In this document: positions 365-1,232 of the stretch, one piece after another
Layout: each line of letters starts with the position of its first letter
Numbering within the stretch: the stretch's first letter is position 1
Assembly (NCBI GenBank): GCA_029862005.1
Contig: JAOTYD010000016.1
Coordinates: 1 to 64,000, forward strand
Direction: 5' to 3'
DNA: 64,000 bases
Source of the DNA: Gammaproteobacteria bacterium
GTDB lineage: Bacteria; Pseudomonadota; Gammaproteobacteria; GCA-001735895
Notes under the pieces: generated by a model
Told to the model about the DNA's origin: nothing
Databases searched by the model: none
What the model saw: only the letters and a program-made list of their open reading frames with translations
Made by a program: the position numbers and the translations under genes

Positions 365-510
365 AGCTGCGTTGGAAACATGCCCGTAAAAGTGTAGCGA
401 GGCAGGATGCCGTGGTCCGACACCTCGGGCTCCAAGCGATTCCATGGATGGACCAACCGGTGCTTTAGCCGGTTGGGAGCGTCTTTTACGGGCATGTTTC
501 CAACGCAGCT
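365..510. repeat. 146-bp element bounded by perfect 28-bp inverted repeats
   Basis: Bases 365-392 and 483-510 are exact reverse complements over 28 bp (left arm begins AGCTGCGTTGG, right arm ends CCAACGCAGCT). The 90-bp centre holds a second perfect hairpin, CCAACCGG (453-460) with CCGGTTGG (469-476), and a possible outer pair GGTCC 414-418 with GGACC 450-454. It lies between convergent dnaQ and smpB and codes for nothing recognisable. No clear target duplication is visible beyond a possible TTG on both sides. It could be a MITE-like non-autonomous element, a genome-dispersed palindrome, or a structured RNA or bidirectional terminator. The structure is certain; the identity is not. Confidence 0.75.

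Positions 511-1120: not shown

Positions 1121-1232
<112 letters not shown>

Follow-up and report, generated by a model that had tools for sequence, protein, structure and literature searches.

What is the long palindrome that lies between dnaQ and smpB at the start of the window (the whole 64,000-nucleotide stretch of DNA that was analysed), and on what does its structure depend? An initial annotation had described a 146-bp palindrome with perfect 28-bp arms around a 90-bp core that holds a perfect 8-bp hairpin of its own, and this description proved exact: the two 28-nt arms are 100% complementary with 90 nt between them, and the inner hairpin pairs CCAACCGG (453–460) with CCGGTTGG (469–476). 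Its placement of the element between dnaQ and smpB was also correct. Only a C-terminal fragment of dnaQ is present, ending at 229 (+) and matching profile NF004316 with a score under the whole-protein cut-off because the sequence is a fragment. The smpB gene occupies 517–1026 (−), scores above the cut-off of the SmpB profile NF003843 and has its stop codon 6 nt from the end of the 3′ arm. As RNA, the element is predicted to fold with −88.4 kcal/mol (z = −9.7), a value equalled by none of 200 shuffled sequences. At gathering scores, an Rfam search of positions 1–2000 of the window yielded no family for the element; its one match was the bacterial small SRP RNA (RF00169, 60.1 bits) at 1130–1225 (+), between smpB and dnaX. 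The parts of the element are given in Table 1.

Table 1 Features of the palindromic element in the window and the basis on which each was assigned
Feature	Position	Strand	Basis
5′ arm of outer stem	365–392	+	Exact inverted repeat; 27 bp by plan, 28 here
Hairpin 1, loop AGGAU within CAGGAUG, GGA at 405–407; first putative CsrA site	401–411	+	Sequence, loop tally
Hairpin 2, UCC-AUGGAU-GGA, GGA at 446–448; second putative CsrA site	441–452	+	Sequence, loop tally
Hairpin 3, CCAACCGG...CCGGTTGG, loop without GGA	453–476	+	Sequence
3′ arm of outer stem	483–510	+	Exact inverted repeat

The element belongs to a dispersed family. A scan for inverted repeats with perfect arms of at least 14 bp and a span of at most 300, run over 464 kb (20 stretches of the same genome plus the window), returned 21 rows compared with 1 in one mononucleotide shuffle. 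Ten of these rows are members of the element's own family (family E), four belong to a second family (A), four are nested rows of two elements of a third family (B) and three are unrelated. The scan gave just one such repeat in the window, as the initial annotation had stated, and its suggestion that the element is a dispersed structured repeat with many genomic copies is borne out by the 31 places that DNA similarity assigned to family E in the same genome (33 rows, two of which are arms matching each other). A covariance model (R1) built on 28 of these own-genome copies matched 52 places in the same genome. Among the matches listed under stricter filters, R1 was found in 17 of the 41 genomes of the order: five congeners have 41, 33, 31, 27 and 15 matches, G054, from another genus, has 11, ten other genomes have 1–7 each, and the other 24 have none. 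An exact 24-nt core pattern occurred in 69 stretches of named genome records and had no exact match in viral contigs. The titles of these records all give metagenome-assembled Gammaproteobacteria, in one case Pseudomonadales. In a 400-kb stretch of one congener (G039), 19 inverted-repeat rows were obtained, several of them runs of N, and none was recognised by eye as belonging to these families. The element has likely been mobile in the past, because the match count spans 0 to 52 among congeners; past mobility does not explain the structure of the element. The copy set of family E comprised 151 places, from which 14 that could not be anchored were dropped and duplicates were merged to leave 117, some of these being mis-anchored or belonging to family B.

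The arms of family E are specific to each copy and the core is constant. Over 22 variable positions in 30 own-genome copies, arm identity is 48% between copies and 94% within a copy, core identity between copies is 92%, and 12 of the 30 have perfect 27-bp arms. A set of 90 copies from several species, which excludes 8 rows in which under 20 of the 27 arm positions pair, as well as short cores, other stem ends and truncated arms, has a mean of 1.33 arm mismatches in 27. In this set, the paired fraction is still 0.94 at position 27 but only 0.49 at position 28 and 0.31 at position 30. This drop past ~27 bp indicates that the arm is a fixed-length part of the element, the 28th pair of the window copy being an extra one. 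A loose sequence preference, about GCYACCYCGGGRGAAWGYYCGCAAAAG, is retained in the arms. The possibility that the element landed on a pre-existing terminator was rejected, since the arms are of fixed length, the A-tract lies on the core side, and a search for promoter-like or terminator-like sites at the window element found none.

These features speak against the MITE that the initial annotation had considered. Of the two signs it had named for such an element, multiple genomic copies were found and target duplications were not: in none of the 30 own-genome copies did a target-site duplication of k = 3 to 9 abut the 27-bp arms, and for k = 2 there were 4 of 30 versus 1.9 expected, in a test that a duplication behind a longer arm would escape. 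Moreover, arms that are 0.48 identical between copies are not family-wide terminal repeats, and the MITE class was rejected on these grounds. Mobilisation of a REP-type repeat by a RAYT (Y1) transposase was also weighed. GTAG is a signature of REPs, the core starts with GTAG ahead of a hairpin, and the genome has two Y1_Tnp genes; nevertheless, neither Y1_Tnp locus (L039, L040) showed a core match by BLAST or the repeat in the flanks inspected. With no RAYT gene flanked by the repeat at these two loci, this candidate was rejected and we give it almost no credence. L039 and L040 are RAYT-like genes, and the flanks of L040 carry a short inverse repeat, GGGGACAGTATACC / GGTATACTGTCCCC, unlike the element studied here.

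In the outer stem, the sequence is loose and the pairing is selected. Across 28 own-genome copies, 97.2% of cells are paired, 22 of the 27 arm pairs show variation in both partners, and double-change cells number 200, compared with a shuffle mean of 44.2 and 22–47 in slid controls. Within the core of these copies, the outer pair of hairpin 2 shows a double change from UA to CG in 2 of 28, and 3 of the 10 modelled pairs of hairpin 3 change on both sides. Paired change is also seen between species, in 17 orthologous pairs (mean identity 0.90 in the flanks and 0.95 in the core) that represent every pass of the flank filter, among them pairs whose arms are recombinant or shifted (L063, L119 and L011). 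Their arm positions comprise 377 unchanged, 46 with one-sided and 36 with two-sided changes; 35 of the 36 two-sided changes pair in both species, and part of the one-sided changes stems from recombinant-looking copies. At the dnaQ–smpB junction itself, two congeners carry the element adjoining the end of smpB, with close cores and with arms that differ yet pair (a perfect 28-bp stem in one congener, 25 paired positions of 27 in the second). The element is absent from this junction in many other congeners, and family A or B occupies it in others. The first 130 bases past the smpB stop codon in G023 (L140) hold an unrelated palindrome with perfect 27-bp arms, in which AGGGAC and AGGGAU hairpins were noted by eye on one strand.

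The orthologous loci also bear on a selfish, MITE-like miniature element whose structure would serve its own transposition without a host function. Its patchy copy number, from 0 to 52 matches among congeners, and its presence or absence at the dnaQ–smpB junction would fit such an element, but the arms are copy-specific and target duplication was not seen. Furthermore, a dead copy needs no paired changes, whereas paired changes keep the structure at orthologous loci long past insertion; arm pairing in old copies should decay at the neutral rate, and the opposite was found. We therefore regard this reading as improbable.

Both small hairpins of family E hold a constant GGA next to a variable base in their loops. 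In loop 1, A(N)GGA or AGGA is kept in at least 95 of 101 cores, N being T, G, A or C, with the GGA lost in 3, all of them own-genome copies, and a further 3 unparsed. Loop 2 is mostly AUGGAU and sometimes AGGGAU, and its G, G and A are retained in 97, 98 and 99 of 99. The two GGA sites of the window copy, in CAGGAUG and in CAUGGAUG, lie 38 nt apart. The spacing among 103 family E cores is 23 nt in 47, 38 nt in 21 and other values in 9; for 26 the script recorded no pair of A-N-GGA motifs, in part because CAGGA loops fall outside its pattern. The CsrA consensus is given as RUACARGGAUGU, its GGA lying in a hairpin loop, in excerpts from PMC4347634, and a single CsrA dimer is described as bridging sites 10–63 nt apart in excerpts from PMC7652899. 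As measured against these excerpts, family E has the features of a CsrA/RsmA RNA, namely a loop GGA resembling the consensus and two sites within that range. CsrA itself is encoded in the genome in canonical form, along with two other loci that have a CsrA domain. Besides the canonical CsrA, a 112-aa open frame (L157 and L159; G000:C56:6472–6762, −) contains two tandem CsrA-domain matches.

Families A and B are neighbouring dispersed families that share a common plan with family E. Family A elements are ~100–111 bp long and have copy-specific arms and two A-N-GGA loops on one strand with a GGA spacing of 20 nt. Family B elements are ~195 bp long with a GGA spacing of 25 nt, and A-N-GGA is present in every loop (58 of 58) of the 29 copies used, out of 58 B-like places. 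The own genome holds nine places of family A, some of them partial, and five of family B, one of them partial. The strand of family A is usually opposite to that of family E at a shared locus: all 19 nearby pairs in relatives have A to the left of E and on the opposite strand, and this arrangement recurs in the own genome for 6 of the 8 A neighbours and all 5 B neighbours, a count that includes some partial matches. Nine R1 matches were inspected in five more genomes, in a choice that leaned towards two-loop structures; eight have a pair of A-N-GGA(C/T) loops on the same strand, and the ninth (L248) carries one such loop and an AUGGAG loop.

Neutral decay is expected to leave G–U and A–C mismatches about equally frequent. 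On the + strand, however, the arm mismatches of family E comprise 63 G–U, 21 A–C and 36 others in the 90 copies (p = 5e-6). Taking one copy per arm cluster, there are 49 G–U versus 15 A–C (p = 2e-5); in the own-genome copies alone, the 18 G–U versus 11 A–C are not significant. Family A, whose strand was set in the script ahead of counting, has 37 G–U, 1 A–C and 12 other mismatches on the strand of its A-N-GGA loops; these come from 37 of the 59 A-like places, the rest being 8 failures and 14 duplicates. Family B arms have too few mismatches for testing (3 G–U versus 1 A–C). The G–U excess indicates that the pairing is most likely selected in the + strand RNA, and an RNA structure on the + strand of family E is well supported. 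A local mutational strand bias is unlikely, because A and E lie on opposite strands and each is biased on its own loop strand. A role of the pairing at the DNA level is conceivable, since single-stranded DNA likewise tolerates G–T pairs. The initial annotation had offered an RNA as its alternative to a mobile element, and this is the better fit, with pairing selected on one strand and G–U tolerated.

Template switching between the arms of the DNA (quasi-palindrome correction) might instead keep the arms identical without selection, as several close pairs with four to five paired changes and few unpaired ones would suggest. Such correction should not favour G–U mismatches on the loop-bearing strand, yet G–U dominates there, and the recombinant-looking L063 and L011 retain uncorrected mismatches, which makes this explanation very improbable. 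In L063 and L011, each arm fits family E, but the two arms mismatch each other. L063 is closest to one species in its left flank and 5′ arm and to a second species in its right flank and 3′ arm, so that it looks like a recombinant between the alleles of two species; L063 and L011 are also possible assembly chimeras.

By a crude gene call, which gave the left neighbour of the window copy as a spurious ORF rather than dnaQ, the flanking genes are convergent for 31 of 63 copies, tandem for 28 and divergent for 4. Seven copies in the own-genome stretches comprise three convergent and four tandem settings, one of the latter overlapping a called ORF. There is no sense preference in tandem settings (11 copies in sense with the genes and 17 against). 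The location at gene ends, with many convergent and few divergent settings, and the long selected stem are what would be expected if the stem alone mattered, as a read-through barrier, an RNase III substrate or a 3′-end protector, the GGA being incidental or meant for another protein. A stem of this kind needs neither the loops nor a wobble bias confined to one strand, and it leaves unexplained both the constancy of GGA beside a variable base in the two loops and the recurrence of two such loops on one strand in families of unlike sequence. We consider it unlikely. The best explanation, and in our view a probable one on the sequence evidence, is that the + strand specifies a structured RNA whose ~27-bp stem would present two GGA loops to a CsrA dimer.

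The closest Rfam entry to the element is TwoAYGGAY (RF01731, clan CL00106), which was the top hit of the window copy at 19.9 bits (E 0.87), under the cut-off of 43 bits. Other family E copies also scored under this cut-off (36.4 and 37.5 bits in a search of the whole own genome, and 32.9 bits for L013), and family B scored above it. According to excerpts of the respective papers, TwoAYGGAY originates from a comparative screen (PMC2864571) and was later proposed as a CsrA ligand whose external stem is described as 'not well conserved' (PMC4333381). Its plan, two AYGGAY-type hairpins on one strand inside an outer stem, is found in family E; loop 1 of the window copy is AGGAU, not AYGGAY. Of 31 congeners, 14 have an RF01731 match and 12 a match over the cut-off, while none of 14 control genomes has one. 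Among 185 sampled genomes of the class, 13 have a match (11 over the cut-off), with at least 14 copies in three genomes and 10, 6 and 5 in one each, and multi-copy relatives are present in other gammaproteobacterial families. The matches in 13 of 185 genomes suggest that the pattern is wider than the clade of the window. Eight RF01731 pairs lie within 500 nt of each other among the matches listed, of which six are divergent, one convergent and one same-strand. Loci L254–L273, from three genomes of other gammaproteobacterial families (G197, G126 and G065), contain many RF01731 matches, often as close divergent pairs. Elements were extracted from 8 of these 20 loci, and the stems of the G126 and G197 copies are shorter and common to the copies; the copy-specific 27-bp arms may thus be special to the clade of the window. 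Our best reading is that the element represents a new, high-copy, TwoAYGGAY-like, structure-selected dispersed RNA.

How such an RNA might act can be outlined from these features. The + strand of the element would give a structured RNA of ~130–146 nt, perhaps made mainly by read-through from neighbouring genes, in which the ~27-bp stem would hold out two small hairpins, their loops being A-N-GGA or CAGGA. From the motif, the spacing and the Rfam relative, we infer that family E RNA binds CsrA and that a single CsrA/RsmA dimer would occupy both loops. A divergent A–E pair would supply one sense element per DNA strand. More tentatively, the copies could offer CsrA binding sites scattered over the genome and so either titrate it or let it act on those 3′ regions in which they lie; the decoy role is speculative. 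It is possible, though rather doubtful, that there exists a distributed CsrA system in which tens of two-site RNAs, often in divergent pairs, arise by read-through and titrate CsrA. Such a system would replace or accompany a dedicated CsrB-type sRNA.

CsrA is a global regulator that is classically restrained by a few sponge RNAs. If the proposed reading is true, ~45 scattered two-site elements (31 E, 9 A and 5 B) would place many CsrA sites outside the known regulator genes, and CsrA activity might be tied to read-through at gene ends. The copies also constitute a natural experiment in RNA evolution, with one core and dozens of stems, and the strand-specific wobble excess provides a sequence-only test that could show which strand of other palindromic repeats is functional.

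Like the element, the ERIC, Correia/NEMIS and REP/BIME repeats are ~100–150 bp, intergenic, palindromic and dispersed; by description, they are set apart by terminal repeats that are family-wide, whereas the arms of the element are copy-specific. Family E resembles the sponge RNAs CsrB/CsrC and RsmX/Y/Z in having GGA in hairpin loops, but these are single RNA genes with many sites, whereas family E has two sites in each of tens of elements. The CAGGAUG of the window copy equals the CsrB repeat, CAGGA(U/A/C)G, as given in the excerpts from PMC7652899. At the level of listings and the openings of abstracts, no printed account of dispersed CsrA-binding repeats was recognised in the PMC library searched. 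Bacillaceae-1 RNA (RF01690, reverse complement), to which excerpts from PMC4333381 assign two predicted CsrA hairpins and a strand set from the loops, is like family E by description in these two hairpins and unlike it in its hosts, Bacillales and Lactobacillales. As far as the excerpts describe it, TwoAYGGAY shares with family E a poorly conserved outer stem and two A-Y-GGA-Y type loops on one strand. Family E differs in its third hairpin, in a 15-nt insertion in many copies, in loops beyond AYGGAY (AGGGAC and CAGGAU) and in a fixed 27-bp copy-specific stem, where low conservation is coupled with strong pairing, while the TwoAYGGAY stem is described in these excerpts by its low conservation.
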